Positions 2,728 to 27,729 of a stretch of DNA of 64,000 bases are shown here, piece by piece (position 1 is the first letter of the stretch; each line of letters opens with the position of its first letter). The DNA comes from Methylomarinovum caldicuralii. GTDB lineage: Bacteria > Pseudomonadota > Gammaproteobacteria > Methylococcales > Methylothermaceae. The notes under the pieces are model-generated. The model was not told where the DNA came from, ran no database searches, and saw nothing but the letters and a program-made list of their open reading frames with translations. The stretch spans positions 1,752,990 through 1,816,989 of the forward strand of contig NZ_AP024714.1 of NCBI RefSeq assembly GCF_033126985.1, written 5' to 3'. The position numbers and the translations under genes were made by a program.

Positions 2728-3812
2728 GCCTGCAACAGCTCCCGATAGGCAGATTCCAGTTCCCGCACCGGCTTGTCGGTGAATTCGCGTTCCACCTTAC
2801 GCATTCCCGCCTCCCCCATGCGCTGCCGCAATCCGGGGTCATCGATCAATTGTTGCACCCGTGACACCAGTGCTTCCAGATCGTCCCGTTCCACCAAAAA
2901 GCCGGTGACGCCGTCCTCGATGATCTCAGGAATCCCTCCAACCCGGGTTGCCACGATGGGTTTGCGGCAGGCGCCGGCCTCGATCGCGATCAGGCCGAAG
3001 GGTTCGTCCCAGCGCGAGGGCATGACGATGATGTCGGCGCTGTGATAAAGGTTCTCCGGATCGTCCAGCCGGCCCAAGTAGCGGATGTCGGGGTGGCCGC
3101 CGATTTCCGCCTGCAGCGCCTCCTCGCTGTACGCACCGGATCCGCTCTGACACCGGCCCGCCAACAGAAACTTCAGATTGGGGCGCCGGCCGCTGAGCCT
3201 TCTGGACATGTCGAGGAACAGGTCAACCCCCTTGATTTGCTTCATCTGGCCTAGAAACGCAATCACCGTTTCCCCGTCGCCGATCCCCAACTCCCGGCGG
3301 ATCGAACGGCCGCGGTCGAACCGCTGCAAATCGGTGGGATTGTGAATCACCTTCTTGGGCACCTGCGGCGGCCCGGAGACCGAGGCGGTATAGGCGGAAT
3401 TGGCGATGATCAGGCTAGAAAGGCCGACAAAGGGGCCGGGCTGCTTCATCACCACATGATAGTGGGTGACGACGGGCACCCGGGCCAGACGGGCGGCCAG
3501 AATCTCGGCAGGACGCCAAAACGTATGGTTGGCATGGACGATGGCGATGCGCTCGCGCTTTAGAAAGCGATAGAAGGACAACAGGCTTTTCAGATAGGCG
3601 AGCGGATTTCCGGGTTCGGTAAAACCGGACCAGAAGCGATAAGCCACTCCCCAACGCTGCAGCTCCGGCATGATGGGACCTTCACCGGGAAGCAGCACCA
3701 AAGGCTCGAAATGCTGCCGGTCAAGATGCCTCAGATTGGTGAACAAGACCCGGCTGGCGCCGCCCCAGTCACCGGAACTCTCCGAGAGATAACAGACTTT
3801 TATTCGCTTCAT
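2724..3812 (-). CDS. Glycosyltransferase family 4 (group 1)
   Basis: This 362-residue GT-B enzyme has an N-terminal acceptor domain (KVCYLSESSGDWGGASRVL) and a C-terminal donor domain. The donor domain contains FLGQMKQIKGVDLFLD, the conserved EPFGLIAIEAGACRKPIVAT segment with its EX7E nucleotide-sugar-binding pattern, and GGIPEIIEDGVTGFLV. It is a cytoplasmic or membrane-associated sugar transferase of the polysaccharide pathway. The start at 3812 overlaps the stop of the sulfotransferase gene by 4 bp, and its own stop overlaps the next start by 4 bp. Specificity cannot be read from the sequence. Confidence 0.9.
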   Translation of the reverse strand: MKRIKVCYLSESSGDWGGASRVLFTNLRHLDRQHFEPLVLLPGEGPIMPELQRWGVAYRFWSGFTEPGNPLAYLKSLLSFYRFLKRERIAIVHANHTFWRPAEILAARLARVPVVTHYHVVMKQPGPFVGLSSLIIANSAYTASVSGPPQVPKKVIHNPTDLQRFDRGRSIRRELGIGDGETVIAFLGQMKQIKGVDLFLDMSRRLSGRRPNLKFLLAGRCQSGSGAYSEEALQAEIGGHPDIRYLGRLDDPENLYHSADIIVMPSRWDEPFGLIAIEAGACRKPIVATRVGGIPEIIEDGVTGFLVERDDLEALVSRVQQLIDDPGLRQRMGEAGMRKVEREFTDKPVRELESAYRELLQA

Positions 3813-4735
3813 GAATAACCCATCCGTTCAGCCACTTCCTGCACTTGCGGCAGGACGCGCTCGATCCTGTCCCGGTTGGCGCCGCCCTTCCACTTGTCCA
3901 AGCCCACCCTGGAGAATGCGTTGTAAGGTTTCTGCAGCACGCTGCGGCAGTGATCTTCAAGATGGCGGTCGAAGGGAACCTGACAGCGGCGGAATACCTC
4001 CGCGAAAGCCTCCACCGGATTCTCGAGAATGGACTCGTAGGCGATTTCGCACCAGCGTTCCGGAGCCACCTGGTCCCGGGCCGCCAGGATAGCGGCGTTC
4101 ATCTCCCGGTACTGAAAGGCGCAGACCTCCTCCAAAGGGGCCTCCAGATAATTCCGCCATCCCGGGGGCAGAAAGAAACACCAGCGCCGGAACCGCCCTC
4201 CGTCGATGCGCACTTCCGCCGGCAGGTCCCGCGACCAGGTGGCGAAGGTTTCCGCCCGCCGCCAGCCTTCCATCAGGGAATGGATGTTGTCACCGGGATT
4301 GCGTTTGACATAGACGAAGAAAGCATCGGGAAACAGACGCTGCAGATAGGGGATGGAAAGGCCGTTCTGGTTGTTCTTGTCGACGAAGCGGCGCTTGCCG
4401 GTGCGGGTATAAAACAGACTGGCGACCTGGCGACAGTCCCCGGCGCAGGCGGCTTCCGGCGGAATCGCATGGCTGTCCCAGCCGCGCTCGGCCGGAGGAT
4501 GGAGGCCAGCCCAGAAATCGTGGGTCTCCTTCTGGAGCGAGCCCAGGGCGGCGGCCTCCGACAGGGTCTTGTAGACCAGCGTGGTGCCGGCCCGGCTGCA
4601 GCCGACCACGAACACCGGCGGTCCCAGCTGCGGTACCGCCAGGTCGAACCGCAGGCCCCTCAGACCTGCGAGCGCCTTGGCTTGATAAAATGCCGCTGTC
4701 TTATACACTTTTTCCCAAAACACCTTCATATCCAT
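3809..4735 (-). CDS. Sulfotransferase family protein
   Basis: This 308-residue protein has the two PAPS-binding signatures of the sulfotransferase superfamily. A 5'-phosphosulfate loop, VGCSRAGTTLV, lies at about residues 44-54, and a 3'-phosphate site lies in VYVKRNPGDNIHSLMEGW. It should move a sulfo group from PAPS to a hydroxyl on a carbohydrate or other small acceptor. The start is set at the ATG of MDMKVFWEKV, two codons upstream of an alternative ATG; the reading frame continues upstream but has no family similarity. It heads a minus-strand block with glycosyltransferases and lies only 14 bp from the divergent asparagine-synthetase-like gene. The setting suggests a sulfated surface glycan. 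The acceptor is unknown. Confidence 0.85.
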   Translation of the reverse strand: MDMKVFWEKVYKTAAFYQAKALAGLRGLRFDLAVPQLGPPVFVVGCSRAGTTLVYKTLSEAAALGSLQKETHDFWAGLHPPAERGWDSHAIPPEAACAGDCRQVASLFYTRTGKRRFVDKNNQNGLSIPYLQRLFPDAFFVYVKRNPGDNIHSLMEGWRRAETFATWSRDLPAEVRIDGGRFRRWCFFLPPGWRNYLEAPLEEVCAFQYREMNAAILAARDQVAPERWCEIAYESILENPVEAFAEVFRRCQVPFDRHLEDHCRSVLQKPYNAFSRVGLDKWKGGANRDRIERVLPQVQEVAERMGYS

Positions 4736-4749
4736 TGCGAGGCAACCCC

Positions 4750-6549
4750 ATGTACGACTACGCCGGCTGGTTCGGGCGTCACCCTGACAAGCATAGCCCA
4801 AAAGACCTGCTCGGTGCCATGCTGGAACCCACCGCCGGATCACACGTGGCCCCCCATGTCGCCTTGGCCGCCACCAGCGCCTGCCTGCACGGGGGTGAAC
4901 CGATCGCCTGTCTGCTCAGCGGCCGGCCCCGCTGGCAGGATGCCGCATTGGTGGAAACGGCGGCCCGGGAAGGCAATGCGGTGCTCTTTTCTCGCCTCTG
5001 GCGGAAAGAAGGTCTGGAGGCCTTCAGGCACTTGGGGGGAGGTTTCGCCGTCGCCGCCTGGGACCGGGAAAGACAGACGGGACTGCTGGCCGTCGACCGC
5101 ATGGGGATACACCCCCTCACCTACGCCGAGGTTCCGGGGGGAATCGTGTTCGCGGGCGATCTTCAGCGCCTTCGCCGCCATCCGGAAATCTCCGGGGAGA
5201 TCGACCCCCAGGCGCTGTTCGCCTATCTCTATTTCCACATGATTCCGGCTCCCTTGTCGGTTTACCGGGGCGTTTGCAAGATGCTGCCGGGTCAGTACCT
5301 CCTCTGGGGGCCTTCCGGCACCGAACAGGGATTCCACTGGCAGCCCGACTTCCGCGAGGATCCCAGACCGGAGGCCGAACTCGCCAGAGATCTCCGTGAT
5401 CGTCTCCGGAAGGGAGTGGCGGAGAACCTGGAACAGCCGGAAAAAACCGGCGCGTTCCTTAGCGGCGGCCTCGATAGCAGTACCGTCACCGGCCTGTTCT
5501 CGCAGCTGGCCCCGAAGGAGGCGGCCGCCTTCTCCATCGGCTTTTCCGCCGAGGGCTACGACGAGATGGAATACGCCCGGGCCAGCGCCCGCCATTTCGG
5601 AGTGCCCTTGCACGAATATTACGTCACCCCCAAAGACGTGACCGAGGCCGTCCCTGAAATCGCTGCTTTCTACGACGAACCCTTCGGCAACGCCTCGGCG
5701 GTACCGACCTATTATTGCGCCCGCCTGGCCCGGGAACACGGCAGAACCTGCCTGCTGGCGGGTGACGGCGGTGACGAGTTGTTCGCCGGCAATGCGCGCT
5801 ACGCCAAGCAGAAGCTGTTTGCCTATTACGACCGCATCCCACCGGCGCTGCGTCACATCCTGATTGAGCCTCTGGCGGCCCTGACCGCCGGAGTGCCGCT
5901 GCCGGGCAAGCTCAAAAGCTACGTGGACCAGGCCCGCATTCCCATGCCGATGCGCATGGAGACCTACAACTTCCTCCACCGCACTTCCCTGGGCGATATT
6001 TTCGAAGCGGAGTTCCTGGCTGCCGTCGATACCGGCTGGCCCATTGCCCACCTGCGGGAGGTTTATCACAGGCCGCAGACCTCCATGCTCAAACGGATGT
6101 TGTGGCTGGACTGGAAGATCACCCTGGCGGATAACGACCTGCGCAAGGTGAACCGGATGTGCGCCCTGGCAGATGTGGATGTGCGCTATCCGATGCTCGG
6201 GGACGAGGTGGTGGCGCTGGCCGCCCGGGTCCCGGATTGCCTGCTGATGCGGGGGCTGGAACTGCGTTCCTTCTACCGCCGTGCCTTCCGTGATTTTCTG
6301 GCGCCGGAAACCCTGAAGAAATCCAAGCACGGCTTCGGCCTGCCGTTCGGCCTGTGGCTCAAAACCGATACCGGCCTGCGGGACCTGGCTTATGACAGCC
6401 TGGGCAGCGTCCATCTGCGGGGCATCGTCCGCCCGGACTATCTGGAACGGTTGAAGCAGGCCCACGAGCAGGAGCATGCATCCTACTACGGGGTCATGAT
6501 CTGGATCCTGATGATGTGGGCCCAGTGGTCCGAGCGGCACCGCTCCTGA
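4750..6549 (+). CDS. Asparagine synthetase-like protein lacking the glutaminase cysteine
   Basis: This 599-residue protein has the two-part layout of class II asparagine synthetases. The C-terminal half keeps the ATP-pyrophosphatase loop SGGLDSS at about residue 238, LLAGDGGDELFAGNARY, and the late KHGFGLPFGLWL segment. The N-terminal half resembles an Ntn glutaminase domain but starts MYDYAGWFG instead of MCG, so the catalytic cysteine is missing and glutamine hydrolysis is unlikely. The ATG at 4750 fits this homology and follows a GAGGCAA ribosome-binding sequence. It is the only plus-strand gene inside the XrtA locus, and its 3' end overlaps the O-ligase gene by 56 bp. It may amidate or ligate a sugar-linked acid using ammonia; the substrate is unknown. 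Confidence 0.85.
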   Translation: MYDYAGWFGRHPDKHSPKDLLGAMLEPTAGSHVAPHVALAATSACLHGGEPIACLLSGRPRWQDAALVETAAREGNAVLFSRLWRKEGLEAFRHLGGGFAVAAWDRERQTGLLAVDRMGIHPLTYAEVPGGIVFAGDLQRLRRHPEISGEIDPQALFAYLYFHMIPAPLSVYRGVCKMLPGQYLLWGPSGTEQGFHWQPDFREDPRPEAELARDLRDRLRKGVAENLEQPEKTGAFLSGGLDSSTVTGLFSQLAPKEAAAFSIGFSAEGYDEMEYARASARHFGVPLHEYYVTPKDVTEAVPEIAAFYDEPFGNASAVPTYYCARLAREHGRTCLLAGDGGDELFAGNARYAKQKLFAYYDRIPPALRHILIEPLAALTAGVPLPGKLKSYVDQARIPMPMRMETYNFLHRTSLGDIFEAEFLAAVDTGWPIAHLREVYHRPQTSMLKRMLWLDWKITLADNDLRKVNRMCALADVDVRYPMLGDEVVALAARVPDCLLMRGLELRSFYRRAFRDFLAPETLKKSKHGFGLPFGLWLKTDTGLRDLAYDSLGSVHLRGIVRPDYLERLKQAHEQEHASYYGVMIWILMMWAQWSERHRS

Positions 6550-7855
6550 CCGGACGCACCACGAACGAGAGCGCAGCAGGCGGTTTTTTCTCCGTCGCCG
6601 CTTCTTGCTCCTTCAGGGCTTTGCCAGCGATTTCCTTGGCCAGCACGATCAGCGCGATCAGATTATAGTACAGGTCAAAATAGGCCATTCCCAGGAAAGC
6701 CCCGGAAACGGCATAGCCCACCAGGCTGACTTGGAGCATAGCCCCCAGATCGTGCACCCAGCGCAGATCCTCCCAGTTTTTTGTCTGCCGCATGATCCAT
6801 TTGCAGCTGCGCCAAGCGCTGTAACCGATGGCCAAAAACAGAGCCAGGCCGATGAAGCCTTGCTCTCCCAGCACCTCGAAATAGATGCTATGGGCGTCAT
6901 GAACGTCTCTAGGGTCGGGGGCATACATGGCAAACGTGGGGGCCCTGAAGCATTCGAAGCCACCGCCCAATATCCTGTCCTTGGCCAGATTGAAGGCCAT
7001 CCACCAGGCATTGATCCGCCCCATGGCGGAACCATCTTGCTGATAGGTCTTGATGGTGGACATGCGTTCGTGCCAGGACTCGGGCATGAAAGTATAGATA
7101 ACAGGCAACGCCAGTCCCATGACGATCAATAGGGTCCACTTGTGCCGGCTGTTGCGCAGCAGGAACATCAACATCACCGCCACTCCCAAGAAAGCGCCGC
7201 GGGACTGGGTTCCGACGATGGCGATGACACAGAGAATCATGCCGATCAGCAGCAGCCGTTTGGCCCAAAAGTGGTCGGTCGTCAGCTGGCAGTAACGCAG
7301 CAGGGGCACCGTCATGATCAGGGCCAAACCGATTTCGTTGTTGCCGCCGATGAAGGTGCCTTCCGGCCCGTAAACCGCATAGGCACCGCCCGTCAGCACC
7401 GTGAACACCCCGCCCTTGAAGCCGTAAAACCCGAGCGACAGGGCGATCACCCAGACCCAGGTCTGAATGCGCCAGCGGTTGGTCATGATCATCATGCTGA
7501 CGAAGGTCATCAGCTGGATTTTCCACACCTTGTTCCACTGCCCCCAGGCCAACTCCGGATACATGGCAAACAGGGTGGTGATGAACATCCAGATGTTGAA
7601 GATGATCAACAGGATGGTTTCCCGTGTCCAAGGAATCCTCTTCGGCTCCCGGGAAATCAACAGGGAAAACATGGTGGTCAGGGCCACGATCTGGGCGAAG
7701 GGAAAATCGTGAGCGAACTGCCACGACAGTTTGTGGGGGTTCATGTAGCCAAGCCAGGCCCACATCAGGATGCCGATCTCCGGCCGCCTGAGGATGAACG
7801 GCAGGGAATAGAAAACCACCACAGTGACGAAAACATCGCGGAGCGGGATACCCAT
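6494..7855 (-). CDS. Putative O-glycosylation ligase, exosortase A-associated (Wzy/O-antigen ligase family)
   Basis: This 453-residue integral membrane protein has about ten hydrophobic segments and a large periplasmic loop. It matches the exosortase A-associated O-glycosylation ligase family (TIGR03097) by its N-terminal RDVFVTVVVFYSLPFILRRP, the WLGYMNPHKLSW motif, GTFIGGNNEIGLAL, and a loop rich in conserved His, Asp and Arg (DPRDVHDAHSIYFEVLGEQG). It would polymerise or transfer lipid-linked glycan in the periplasm. The C-terminal 30 residues are poorly conserved and overlap the convergent asparagine-synthetase-like gene. The gene starts one base before the stop codon of the upstream glycosyltransferase. 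Confidence 0.9.
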   Translation of the reverse strand: MGIPLRDVFVTVVVFYSLPFILRRPEIGILMWAWLGYMNPHKLSWQFAHDFPFAQIVALTTMFSLLISREPKRIPWTRETILLIIFNIWMFITTLFAMYPELAWGQWNKVWKIQLMTFVSMMIMTNRWRIQTWVWVIALSLGFYGFKGGVFTVLTGGAYAVYGPEGTFIGGNNEIGLALIMTVPLLRYCQLTTDHFWAKRLLLIGMILCVIAIVGTQSRGAFLGVAVMLMFLLRNSRHKWTLLIVMGLALPVIYTFMPESWHERMSTIKTYQQDGSAMGRINAWWMAFNLAKDRILGGGFECFRAPTFAMYAPDPRDVHDAHSIYFEVLGEQGFIGLALFLAIGYSAWRSCKWIMRQTKNWEDLRWVHDLGAMLQVSLVGYAVSGAFLGMAYFDLYYNLIALIVLAKEIAGKALKEQEAATEKKPPAALSFVVRPVRSGAARTTGPTSSGSRS

Positions 7856-9061: not shown

Positions 9062-10268
9062 GCTGCTGCACCAGTGGCGTGTAAACGGAGCGGTAACGGG
9101 CCACGCTGCTCTCCCAGGTGCGCTGCTCGGTGACGAAACGCCGGCCGGCGGCCAGCACTTCCGGCCAGCGGTCCCGCGCTGCCAGCACCCGGATGACCGT
9201 CTCCACCAGGGACTCGGCCCGGCCGGCACGGAACAGGAACCCGGTCTCCCCGTCCCGGATCAGCTCCCTATGGCCGCCGACGTCCGAGGCCACCACCAGG
9301 CGGCCCCGCGCCATCGCCTCCAGGGGTTTAAGGGGCGTCACCAGTTCGGTCAGGCGCATCGGCAGGCGGGGATAGACGAAGATGTCCACCAGGTCGTAAT
9401 AGCGCGGCACCTGGTCGTGGGGCACGCGGCCGGTGAAGACGACCTTGCCGTTCAGGCCGTACTGTTCCACCTGCGCCCGCAGCGCCGCCTCCTCCGGCCC
9501 ACCGCCGACCAGCAGCAGACGCACGCGTTCGTCATGCCGCAGCAGGTCCGGCAACGCCTGGATCGCCAGGGCCAAACCCTCGTAGGCGTAGAAGGAACCG
9601 ATGAATCCCAGTACGCACTTTCCCGTTAGCCCCAGGGAACGCTGCAGCTCGGGATCTGGCTCGGTGCCGAAGGTGAAACGGCCGGGATCGACGGCGTTGG
9701 GAATCACCGTCACCTTGGCTTCGGGAATCCCGCGGGCGACGATGTCCGCTTTCAACCCCTCGCAGATGGTGGTCACGGCGTCCGCATGGCGGAACACATA
9801 GGTTTCCAGCGCCCGGGTCAGGCGGTAACGGAGGCTGCCTTCGGTGGTGGTGCCGTGATCCACGGCCGCGTCCTCCCAGAAGGCGCGGCATTCATAGACC
9901 AGCGGCAGACCATGCCGGCGGGCGGCGCGGAGGGCGGCCAGGCCGTTGAGGGCCGGGGAGTGGGCGTGGAGAATGTCAGGACGAAGCACAGGTATCAGTT
10001 CATCCAGGCGCCTTTCCAAGGCCTTTACCACAGCCCACTGGGCAACCAGTGGCAACCGTTTCTGCCAGAGCAGCGGCCCTGGGGTGCGGTGAAACTCGAA
10101 ACCGTCCACGGTCTCCTGCAACACCCCCCCAGGCCGGTGCTTGGAGGAAGTCAGATGGCAGGTTTCCCAACCCAAGGCCCGCTGCTGTTCCAGAATCGCC
10201 CGCGTGCGGAAGGTGTAGCCGCTGTGGAGGGGAATGGAATGGTCGAGGATATGGAGAATCCGCATCAT
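9054..10268 (-). CDS. PEP-CTERM/exosortase A-associated glycosyltransferase (stp3, Daro_2409 type)
   Basis: This 404-residue family 4 glycosyltransferase begins MMRILHILDHSIPLHSGYTFRTRAIL, which is the hallmark of the exosortase A-associated Daro_2409 family (TIGR04063). The donor half has GFIGSFYAYEGLALAI and LKPLEAMARGRLVVASDVGG. The start at 10268 gives a 4-bp ATGA overlap with the amidotransferase stop; a longer open frame extends to 11015 but is only the shadow of that gene. It should add a sugar to the polysaccharide precursor on the cytoplasmic face of the membrane. Confidence 0.93.
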   Translation of the reverse strand: MMRILHILDHSIPLHSGYTFRTRAILEQQRALGWETCHLTSSKHRPGGVLQETVDGFEFHRTPGPLLWQKRLPLVAQWAVVKALERRLDELIPVLRPDILHAHSPALNGLAALRAARRHGLPLVYECRAFWEDAAVDHGTTTEGSLRYRLTRALETYVFRHADAVTTICEGLKADIVARGIPEAKVTVIPNAVDPGRFTFGTEPDPELQRSLGLTGKCVLGFIGSFYAYEGLALAIQALPDLLRHDERVRLLLVGGGPEEAALRAQVEQYGLNGKVVFTGRVPHDQVPRYYDLVDIFVYPRLPMRLTELVTPLKPLEAMARGRLVVASDVGGHRELIRDGETGFLFRAGRAESLVETVIRVLAARDRWPEVLAAGRRFVTEQRTWESSVARYRSVYTPLVQQHG

Positions 10269-12145
10269 TGCCGCCGCAGGAAGGATTCGAACATCAAGAG
10301 CGACCAGATCGGCGCGCTGTAGTCGCGCAGCCCCTGCTGGTGCTGCTCCACCATGGTTTTGAGAAAACCGGGATCGAACCAGCCCGAATCGAGCATCGCC
10401 GGTCCGAGCAGGGACTGGCGGACCTTCTCCCGCAGCGGCCCACGAAACCAGGCCGCCAACGGCACGGCGAAGCCCATCTTGGGACGGTAGAGGACGCTTT
10501 CGGGCAGGTACGGCTCCAGCGCCTTCTTGAAGAGGTACTTCCCCTCCCGGCCGTTTAACTTGTACTGTGGCGGCAGGGTGGCGGCCCACTCCACCAGGGG
10601 GTGGTCGAGGATCGGCACCCGCACCTCCAGGGAATGGGCCATGCTGGCCCGGTCCACCTTGGTGAGGATGTCGCCGGGCAGATAAGTCTTGAGGTCCAGA
10701 TACTGAACCTGCAGCAAAGGATGATGGGGGGCGTTCTCGTCGTGGCGGCGCAGCACCTCGACCGCGTGGTAACCCTGCAACTCGGACCGGAACCGGTCGC
10801 TGTAGAGCTGCCGGCGCAGGCCGTCCCCCATCACCGACACGCTGTGGAAGTACCCCTCCAGGGAATCCCGCCCCAGGGACTCGAAGGTGGACTTGGCCCT
10901 GAAGATCTTCGGCGCCCAGTCGAGCTTGGGATAGACCCGCCCCAGGAAACCGAACAGGGGTCTGCGGACGGCACCGGGAATCAGCGCCCGCATTCGCTCC
11001 TCGTACACGTGCCAACGGTAGCGGCGGTAGCCAGCGAAGTTCTCGTCGCCGCCGTCGCCGGACAGGGCCACGGTGACCTGCTCCCGCGCCAGCCCGCAGA
11101 CCCGGTAGGTGGGCAGGGCCGAGCTGTCGGCGTAGGGCTCATCGTAGAGGCCGGCCAGGCGGTCGATCAGGGAGAAATCGTCGGGATCGACCTCGCGGAC
11201 CCGGTGGCGGGCCCGGCAGCGTTCGGCCACCTCGCGGGCGAATTCCACCTCGTTGAACTTCGGATCGCCGAAGGAGATGGAGCAGGCGTCCACCGGCTCG
11301 TCCATGAGCTGCGCCATCATCGCCACCACCGCGCTCGAATCCACCCCGCCGGAGAGAAACGCACCCAGGGGAACGTCGGCAATCAAACGCACGTCCACCG
11401 CCTCGCGCAGCCGGTCGATCAGACCCTCGCGGGCGGCAGCCTCATCGATGCCGGCATCGGGGGAAAAGCGGACGTCCCAGTAGCGCTCGGGACGGACCGG
11501 CTCCCCCCGGCGGACCAGCAGCCGTTCCCCCGGGGCCAGCTTGAACACTCCCTGGTAGATGGTCCTGGGATCGGGCACGTAGCCGTAGGCGAAGTATTCC
11601 TCCAGCGCCCGGGGATCGAGCTGCCGCGGCAGCCCCGGATGCAGCTGCAGGGCCTTGAGTTCGGAGGCGAAGGCGAACCAGCCGTCCTCCAGGGTGGCGT
11701 AGTAGAGCGGCTTGATGCCGAGGCGGTCGCGGGCCAGAAACAGGCTCTGGTCATCCTCGTTCCAGATGGCGAAGGCGAACATGCCGCGCAGGCGTTCGAC
11801 GCAGGCCGGCCCCCAGGCTTTCCAGGCGTAGAGGATGACCTCGGTGTCGCAGCGGGTCCGGAAGCGATAACCCAGTCCCTCCAATTCCCGGCGCAGCTGG
11901 GGAAAATTGTAGACCTCACCGTTGTAGGTGATGACCGTGCAGCCGTCGGCGCTGACCATGGGCTGGGCCCCACTCTCCAGATCGATGATCGCCAGGCGCC
12001 GGTGCCCCAGCCCCAGACCGGGGCGCACCTCCAGGCCGCTGCCGTCGGGGCCGCGGTGGATCTGGCGGTCGTTCATCTGCTGCAGCAGGGCACGGTCCAC
12101 CTCGCGCCTGCCCTCCAGATCCATCATGCCGACGATGCCGCACAT
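10265..12145 (-). CDS. Exosortase A system-associated amidotransferase (asparagine synthase type)
   Basis: This 626-residue protein begins MCGIVGMMDLEGRREVD, so the N-terminal nucleophilic Cys2 of the glutaminase domain is present. It also has RGPDGSGLEVRPGLGLGHRRLAIIDL and the synthetase loop FLSGGVDSSAVVAM at about residue 260. It matches the XrtA-associated amidotransferase family (TIGR03108). It should use glutamine and ATP to amidate a carboxyl, probably on a sugar or lipid-linked intermediate, rather than make free asparagine. It lies 5 bp after the stp2 gene and is coupled to stp3. Contrast the paralogue at 4750-6549, whose cysteine is lost. Confidence 0.93.
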   Translation of the reverse strand: MCGIVGMMDLEGRREVDRALLQQMNDRQIHRGPDGSGLEVRPGLGLGHRRLAIIDLESGAQPMVSADGCTVITYNGEVYNFPQLRRELEGLGYRFRTRCDTEVILYAWKAWGPACVERLRGMFAFAIWNEDDQSLFLARDRLGIKPLYYATLEDGWFAFASELKALQLHPGLPRQLDPRALEEYFAYGYVPDPRTIYQGVFKLAPGERLLVRRGEPVRPERYWDVRFSPDAGIDEAAAREGLIDRLREAVDVRLIADVPLGAFLSGGVDSSAVVAMMAQLMDEPVDACSISFGDPKFNEVEFAREVAERCRARHRVREVDPDDFSLIDRLAGLYDEPYADSSALPTYRVCGLAREQVTVALSGDGGDENFAGYRRYRWHVYEERMRALIPGAVRRPLFGFLGRVYPKLDWAPKIFRAKSTFESLGRDSLEGYFHSVSVMGDGLRRQLYSDRFRSELQGYHAVEVLRRHDENAPHHPLLQVQYLDLKTYLPGDILTKVDRASMAHSLEVRVPILDHPLVEWAATLPPQYKLNGREGKYLFKKALEPYLPESVLYRPKMGFAVPLAAWFRGPLREKVRQSLLGPAMLDSGWFDPGFLKTMVEQHQQGLRDYSAPIWSLLMFESFLRRQ

Positions 12146-26838: not shown

Positions 26839-27729
26839 ATGCAGGCGGCTTACCGCGGCCGTTTTGCCCCCGCCCCCACCGGGCCGCTTCACCTTGGCTC
26901 GCTGCTGACCGCGCTGGCAGGTTTCCTCCAGGCCCGCGCCCGCGGCGGGGAATGGCATGTCCGCATCGACGATCTCGACACCCCCCGCTGCCTGCCCGGA
27001 GCCGATAGCGAAATCCTGCGCACGCTGGAGCGTTTCGGCCTGCACTGGGACGGCCCGGTGGTCTATCAAAGCCAGCGGCTTGAACGCTACCAAGCCGCCC
27101 TGACGCAGCTGGAGCGCCGGGGATACCTCTACCGCTGCGTCTGCACCCGCAAGATCCTCAGGCAGGACGGCCCGGTATATCCCGGCCGCTGCCGCGGCCG
27201 CCAGATCCCATCCGATCAGCCCCATGCGCTGCGGGTCCGGGTTGACGACACCCCGGTGGTCTTCCACGACCTGCTCCAGGGGGAATTCCGCGTGCACCTG
27301 CCGCAGACCTGCGGCGACTTCATCGTCCGCCGCCGCGACGGCCTGCACGCCTATCAGCTGGCGGTGGTCATGGACGACGCGGATCTGGGAGTCACGGAAG
27401 TGCTGCGCGGTGCCGACCTGCTGGAAGCCACGCCGAGACAGATTTACCTGCAACCCCTGCTCGGCCTGCCCACCCCCGCCTACTGCCACATTCCGGTGCT
27501 GGTGGATACCCGGGGGCGCAAGCTCAGCAAGCAGAACGGCGCCCCGCCGGTCACGGCGGACCGGCCGGAAGCGGTCCTGTTGCAACTGCTCACCTGGCTG
27601 GGACAGGACCCGCCGGCAGCCCTCGGCGGCGCCCCGGTCGGGGAGCTGCTCGCCTGGGCCGTTTCCCACTGGCGCCCGCAGCATCTGCCAAAACGGCGCC
27701 GGCTGGCTATAATGCCCGCCATGCCTTGA
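26839..27729 (+). CDS. gluQ: Glutamyl-Q tRNA(Asp) synthetase
   Basis: This 296-residue enzyme is a shortened GluRS paralogue that attaches glutamate to queuosine at position 34 of tRNA(Asp). Class I signatures are present: the HIGH-type motif in [14 protein letters not shown] and a KMSKS-type motif in [10 protein letters not shown]. It lacks the anticodon-binding domain of GluRS, as expected for its length. Zinc-site cysteines are seen in YRCVCTRKI. It is probably cotranscribed with dksA. The last codons overlap no gene; acs follows after 20 bp. Confidence 0.95.

Follow-up and report, generated by a model that had tools for sequence, protein, structure and literature searches.

ASNW, a glutaminase-dead asparagine synthetase-like family associated with exosortase-A polysaccharide loci

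The ASNW gene

An exosortase-A locus of Methylomarinovum caldicuralii contains two genes for asparagine-synthetase-like proteins, raising the question of what the one devoid of the Cys2 nucleophile could do beside a Cys2-bearing paralogue. We examined it in a stretch of 64,000 nt (NZ_AP024714.1, positions 1,752,990–1,816,989), hereafter the window, and searched 61 genomes (that of the window and 60 relatives) and 369 genomes of the class. The gene (4750–6549 including the stop codon, plus strand, 599 aa) and its family are designated ASNW, a label coined here. A preliminary description had proposed that its product is an ATP-dependent ligase or amidating enzyme of glycan modification; the dead glutaminase, the ATP site and the glycan setting are borne out below, whereas the use of ammonia, also contemplated there, is not favoured.

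The ORF containing ASNW spans 4690–6549 (+) in the list of open reading frames, and comparison with relatives, which start at the same residue, places the conserved start at ATG 4750 (MYDYAGWFG); the 20 additional residues encoded from ATG 4690 (MPLSYTLF...) are not conserved among them. An N-terminal MC, which would have told against the preliminary description, arises from neither codon and from none of the other in-frame starts seen; the distinction drawn there between ASNW, without Cys2, and the paralogue in 10265–12145, with Cys2 (start MCGIVGMMD), was confirmed. Besides the ORF, the shared start and a full-length predicted fold, the gene is supported by its match to PF00733, the Asn_synthase domain with the ATP-pyrophosphatase loop (247.8 bits, cut-off 21), with invariant motifs. 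The product scored below the cut-offs of TIGR03108 (266.8 versus 816.9 bits), having neither the Cys2 nucleophile nor the glutamine loop, and of TIGR01536 (213.8 versus 267.1 bits), having no working glutaminase site (Cys1, Arg49, Asn74, Asp98), as well as below those of the lasso peptide cyclase NF033535 (91.1 versus 525 bits) and the N-acetylglutaminylglutamine amidotransferase TIGR03104 (188 versus 570.1 bits). Against five same-genus relatives, dN/dS was 0.07–0.22 for residues 201–599 and 0.24–0.41 for residues 1–200, with several dS values near saturation; these ratios indicate that ASNW is under purifying selection and that substitutions accumulate faster in its dead N-terminal half than in the synthetase half.

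Genetic organization of the locus

The surroundings of ASNW form an exosortase-A exopolysaccharide locus. A sulfotransferase (PF13469; ORF limits 3809–4843, minus strand) has its likely start at ca. 4731, judging from its profile match and the start region of relatives, and a putative exosortase A-associated O-glycosylation ligase (TIGR03097, 536.7 bits, cut-off 188.1; 6494–7855, minus strand), hereafter the O-ligase, shares 56 bp with the 3′ end of ASNW. Further along the minus strand, profile searches identified the Cys2-bearing XrtA/PEP-CTERM amidotransferase paralogous to ASNW (TIGR03108, 1034.3 bits, cut-off 816.9; 10265–12145), exosortase A with an EpsI domain (TIGR03109; 13301–14890), a FemAB-family XrtA-associated protein (TIGR03019; 16041–17063) and an XrtA system polysaccharide deacetylase (TIGR03006; 17053–17955). 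Glycosyltransferases, an epimerase, an ATPase, an outer membrane protein, a tyrosine autokinase, and chain-length and export proteins complete the locus. The minus-strand gene in 1687–2727 encodes a conserved, only marginally GH57-like protein marked by an ESDDWG motif and adjoins the sulfotransferase in several loci; profile comparison found nothing to assimilate the protein to the deacetylase that neighbours ASNW elsewhere.

All the genes called from ca. 0 to 26.4 kb lie on the minus strand except ASNW, the next plus-strand gene being GluQRS at 26839. The observation that ASNW is the only plus-strand gene in 25 kb therefore holds within the window, but is partly an effect of its border, because a plus-strand polysaccharide operon with glycosyltransferases, a deacetylase, a sulfotransferase and a sulfatase-fold protein ends ca. 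0.36 kb to the left of its edge. Left of the window, the plus strand of the same genome (L167, 9165–18640) holds genes for GT2 glycosyltransferases, a PF01522 deacetylase, a second sulfotransferase and a sulfatase-fold protein, and an integrase-like gene is found further left. That PF01522 deacetylase belongs to the same locus, and we make no claim of its orthology to the deacetylases adjacent to ASNW in other genomes.

ASNW diverges from the sulfotransferase gene, their start codons being separated by ca. 18 bp here and by as much as ca. 36 bp in relatives. A promoter-like site recognized by consensus match only (TTGATA-16-TACACT; 4682–4709, plus strand) lies upstream of ASNW, inside the sulfotransferase coding region, and is the single sigma-70-like site found in 4500–6800, where 0.2 were expected. 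This arrangement hints at the separate control that had been suggested for ASNW. The accompanying suggestion of a recent insertion is instead rejected, because the gene has a conserved place and inverted orientation, a GC content matching that of its surroundings, and membership in an old clade. In five same-genus genomes, ASNW is always on the strand opposite to TIGR03108 and adjoins the O-ligase in four and the sulfotransferase in four; it is likewise inverted and beside the O-ligase in L165, from another family of the class.

The glutamine site

Residues 1 to ca. 200 of ASNW (4750–5349, plus strand) are predicted to adopt the N-terminal Ntn (glutaminase) fold (AlphaFold2 pLDDT 92.6), and were mapped onto E. 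coli AsnB. All the residues checked that we take to belong to the glutamine site (Arg49, Asn74, Gly75, Glu76 and Asp98 in AsnB numbering) are lost except the Gly75 equivalent, while the fold is retained. Across the 127 rows of the family alignment, the Arg49 column is a gap in 126, the Asn74 equivalent is Ser, Ala, Glu and others, that of Glu76 is mostly Arg or His, and that of Asp98 is variable; the Gly75 equivalent is kept in 116. None of the 126 family members having a start begins with MCG, which rules out a loss of Cys2 confined to one lineage, and the lone MC start (L079) is an artefact of a wrongly picked TTG start; the six TIGR03108-type proteins having a start all begin with MCG. These alignments indicate that the glutaminase of ASNW is dead, far beyond the loss of Cys2 alone. 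The idea that the domain still splits glutamine through a Ser or Thr in place of Cys2 draws on the commonest residues in that column, Ser (37 of 127) and Thr (15), but is barely conceivable for ASNW, which has a Tyr there and has also lost the Arg49 loop and the equivalents of Asn74, Glu76 and Asp98.

Distribution and company of the ASNW family

Family members were found in 54 of the 369 class genomes (E 1e-70); relatives share 35–73 % identity with ASNW, and TIGR03108-like matches separate at ca. 30 %. A scan of named genomes yielded 80 loci, which belong to Pseudomonadota, Acidobacteriota, Nitrospirota and others; a family match was recovered on re-scan in 78, and the matches in the other two, L137 and L139, are closer to the Cys2 paralogue. 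The phylogeny of synthetases with and without Cys2 that had been advised groups all 39 ASNW rows, out of 49, on the same side of a branch whose SH-aLRT support is 100 %; the tree was made with a quick method, two of its outgroup rows are long-branched, and one unclassified row (L140) is placed within the family branch. Breadth and phylogeny together indicate that the family is old and widespread. The window's own genome contains a third asparagine-synthetase-like paralogue (L003; G000:C1:1881510–1882406), with MCGI and an unusual AGGVDT stretch.

The family keeps close company with the exosortase-A system. TIGR03108 (present in 72 of the 369 class genomes at E 1e-200) occurs in 53 of the 54 genomes with ASNW, and exosortase A (XrtA, 73 of 369) and the O-ligase (60 of 369) each exceed their cut-offs in 49. 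Conversely, ASNW is absent from 24 of the 73 genomes with XrtA over cut-off, and is thus not essential to the system, and from 19 of the 72 with TIGR03108. Among the latter genomes, those with and without the O-ligase numbered 49 and 4 when ASNW was present, and 10 and 9 when it was absent (Fisher p 0.0004, the related genomes not being independent). The two genes are at most 3 kb apart in 23 of 40 genomes with both on one contig, a count that leaves out a 41st genome, G016, in which they are ca. 38 kb apart. One genome, G324, has a family member (L162 16979–18820, minus strand) beside acyl-CoA dehydrogenase and CoA-transferase genes, and no match to XrtA, TIGR03108 or the O-ligase.

Within 1.5 kb of the ASNW gene, the 80 named loci contain a PF01522 deacetylase in 17, the O-ligase in 13, a sulfotransferase in four, and a TIGR03099-type decarboxylase in 13, in 11 of them directly upstream on the same strand, several of these genes overlapping ASNW by a few bases. 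In some relatives, the gene forms a compact operon with those for a decarboxylase and an acyl ligase, and examples of these two enzymes pass the cut-offs of TIGR03099 and TIGR03098. Nevertheless, this module was discarded as a general source of amine, since no match over cut-off to either profile was found in the window's genome and the decarboxylase (42 of 369 genomes at E 1e-100) is present in 24 and absent from 30 of the 54 class genomes with ASNW. A family of small proteins resembling acyl carrier proteins and bearing an ELDSMAV-type motif (e.g., L084 534–779, minus strand), which reached no NCBIfam cut-off, accompanies the TIGR03098/03099/03100/03101 genes of exosortase-A clusters; it was seen in 19 of the 27 loci selected on the basis of the decarboxylase/ligase module or its hydrolases, and by search in 23 of the 80 loci. 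A PaaK/CapK-like adenylating enzyme (L132 770–2173, minus strand, and related) recurs near ASNW and the O-ligase in 13 of the 80 loci; none was found in the window with bait sequences.

The synthetase site

The AlphaFold2 model of ASNW has a mean pLDDT of 92.6 and a pTM of 0.93, and matches over its full length TsnB9 (Z 32.3), AsnB (Z 28.5), human ASNS, beta-lactam synthetase (Z 26.9) and carbapenam synthetase (Z 25.1); when only the C-terminal third was searched against the PDB, no useful match emerged. As had been noticed, the ATP-pyrophosphatase loop and later motifs are retained: SGGLDSS (residues 238–244, with Leu or Thr at 241; 5461–5481, plus strand), GDGGDE (residues 338–343, equivalent to GEGSDE in AsnB; 5761–5778) and Lys526 (Lys449 in AsnB, kept in 124 of 127 rows, the other three being gaps; 6325–6327). 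SGG.DS, GDGGDE and the residue matching Lys449 vary little or not at all among the phyla represented in the 127 rows; on this evidence the ATP site is intact, and the broken residues that would have undermined the preliminary description were not found.

The alignment also revealed a change missing from that description. Asn348 (5791–5793, plus strand), invariant in the alignment (127/127) and in a motif search (128/128), occupies the place of Tyr357 in AsnB and of Tyr373 in the Cys2 paralogue. Asp463 (6136–6138), likewise invariant (127/127), corresponds to Ile493 in the paralogue and aligns with Asp384 in AsnB. Four positions are invariant within each group and different between the paralogue and ASNW, respectively, comparing 127 ASNW rows with only seven of TIGR03108 type: Asp340/Asn314, Val349/Cys323, Tyr373/Asn348 and Ile493/Asp463. 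They point to an altered acceptor site, and the synthetase site as a whole looks, from its sequence, rebuilt rather than merely broken. Excerpts of PMC13060819 report that a pair formed by Glu363 and Tyr368 in PesC is common to the five enzymes compared there, including E. coli asparagine synthetase, and that a Tyr368Phe change abolished PesC activity. From the five-residue spacing, this pair would correspond to Glu352–Tyr357 in AsnB; ASNW keeps the Glu (Glu343) and has Asn348 for the Tyr in all rows, which suggests that the amide-forming reaction usual in these enzymes may have been changed or lost.

This change bears on three other explanations. In the first, ASNW would be an ammonia-dependent synthetase of the amidase type, making a primary amide from free ammonia or from ammonia supplied by a complex with the Cys2 paralogue; the presence of TIGR03108 in nearly all genomes with ASNW and the ability of PesC, also asparagine-synthetase-like, to accept ammonia in place of glutamine (PMC13060819, in excerpt) speak for it. 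We consider it unlikely, because the co-occurrence of TIGR03108, itself a core gene of this system, is no proof of a complex, because the Cys2 enzyme already supplies glutamine-dependent amidation, and because the Glu-Tyr pair of the ammonia-using relatives is invariably broken. Secondly, ASNW could be a pseudoenzyme that regulates or scaffolds its paralogue, as its dead glutaminase, lost catalytic Tyr and co-occurring paralogue would allow; this is quite improbable given the constancy of the ATP-site motifs across phyla and the slower evolution of the synthetase half. Finally, the adenylated carboxylate could be passed to a hydroxyl or a thiol, yielding an ester or a thioester on a carrier protein. 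The acceptor-site replacements that are invariant in the family (Tyr to Asn, Ile to Asp) and the carrier-like ORF of 23 loci fit this explanation, which is nonetheless improbable: most of the 80 loci yielded no carrier protein, and we know of no member of the superfamily that carries out such a transfer.

Proposed function of ASNW

The conservation described indicates that the ASNW family is a genuine and conserved lineage of the asparagine synthetase superfamily that does not depend on glutamine and is linked to the exosortase-A polysaccharide. Our preferred reading, to which we assign a probability of about one half, is that ASNW is an ATP-dependent ligase that joins a carboxylate to an amine not supplied by glutamine during the synthesis of this polysaccharide. 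Its N-terminal domain would keep the Ntn fold and neither bind nor split glutamine, and its C-terminal domain would bind ATP and activate the carboxylate as an acyl-adenylate, which an amine other than glutamine-derived ammonia would attack to form an amide. The carboxylate would probably be on a uronic acid or an amino-acid group of the exosortase-A saccharide; alternatively, it could be that of a small acid attached to an amino sugar after deacetylation. The Cys2 paralogue, WbpS-like, would carry out glutamine-dependent amidation in the same pathway. ASNW thus probably joins an amine to the protein-decorated polysaccharide coat. In favour of this reading we count the missing Cys2 and other glutamine-site residues beside a preserved ATP site, the fold common to TsnB9, AsnB and the two lactam-forming synthetases, the four group-specific residues, the His of TsnB9 in the Asn348 column, the co-occurrence with TIGR03108, XrtA and the O-ligase, and the neighbours that make or use amine or acyl groups at ASNW loci, such as the TIGR03099-type decarboxylase and the PF01522 deacetylase; against it, the loss of the catalytic Tyr, the absence of the decarboxylase/ligase module from the window's genome and of the family from a third of the XrtA genomes (24/73), and the case of G324.

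A very improbable extension is that the family makes an amide-linked, amine-bearing group on the saccharide that acts as acceptor for PEP-CTERM proteins: the decarboxylase, acyl ligase and carrier, where present, would prepare the amine, the deacetylase and ASNW would place it, and exosortase A would use the group. Excerpts of PMC7468200 call the joining partner of the exosortase an unidentified compound, and this extension, if true, would be a route to that long-missing substrate. The invariant Tyr-to-Asn change offers in any case a clean residue-level test of nucleophile choice in the superfamily.

Comparison with known systems

A search of the open-access literature found no description of a glutaminase-dead synthetase of exosortase loci. 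Pairs of asparagine synthetase genes are already in print for the conserved exopolysaccharide clusters of floc-forming and biofilm bacteria (PMC9012009, PMC7662799), and the excerpts of these papers do not mention a glutamine-dead status of one member: PMC9012009 describes there a conserved cluster with two such genes in Zoogloea and Aquincola, and PMC7662799, citing An et al. 2016, states that floc formation requires two synthases (asnB or asnH) that depend on glutamine. Similarly, the psc1 cluster of Rubrivivax encodes three asparagine synthases according to an excerpt of PMC3684757, which also reports transposon insertions in two of the genes and mentions no lack of a glutaminase site in any of them; one of the two, RGS1_10435, is plausibly of the ASNW family, since the matches given for it are not those given for the Cys2 gene. 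If one member of each floc or biofilm pair belongs to the ASNW family, it would not be glutamine-dependent in the usual way and its product would probably be a different polymer bond.

The linking-sugar pathway of P. gingivalis (WbpS/VimA/VimE), a sortase-type system, has kinds of parts also found in the window locus, namely a TIGR03108-like amidotransferase, a FemAB-like aminoacyl enzyme and a deacetylase; excerpts of PMC7468200 link WbpS (TIGR03108-like) and VimA (FemAB-like) to the sortase linking sugar and, in contrast to the window locus, describe no glutaminase-dead synthetase. TIGR03108 enzymes (WbpS-like) share with ASNW the two domains, the loci, the ATP motifs and GDGGDE, with ca. 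31–33 % identity between ASNW and the window paralogue, but only they keep Cys2, the whole glutamine site and Tyr373. AsnB (1ct9; TIGR01536) has in common with ASNW the full-length fold and the ATP site; ASNW differs in its lost glutamine site, in the replacement of Tyr357 by Asn and in its score below the TIGR01536 cut-off. Beta-lactam synthetase (1jgt) and carbapenam synthetase (1q15) are related to asparagine synthetase and use an amine of their substrate where that enzyme uses ammonia; their fold is like that of ASNW, a likeness common to the whole superfamily, yet identity is ca. 15–22 %, they act in a different pathway, and ASNW, known here from its sequence and model, bears no sign of ring closure. 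The best structural match is the hydroxyamidotransferase TsnB9 (7ylz; 22 % identity), which we take to act in trichostatin synthesis and which, going by the PDB title, uses a nitrogen nucleophile other than ammonia; in the alignment it also has a residue other than Tyr, a His, in the column of Asn348.
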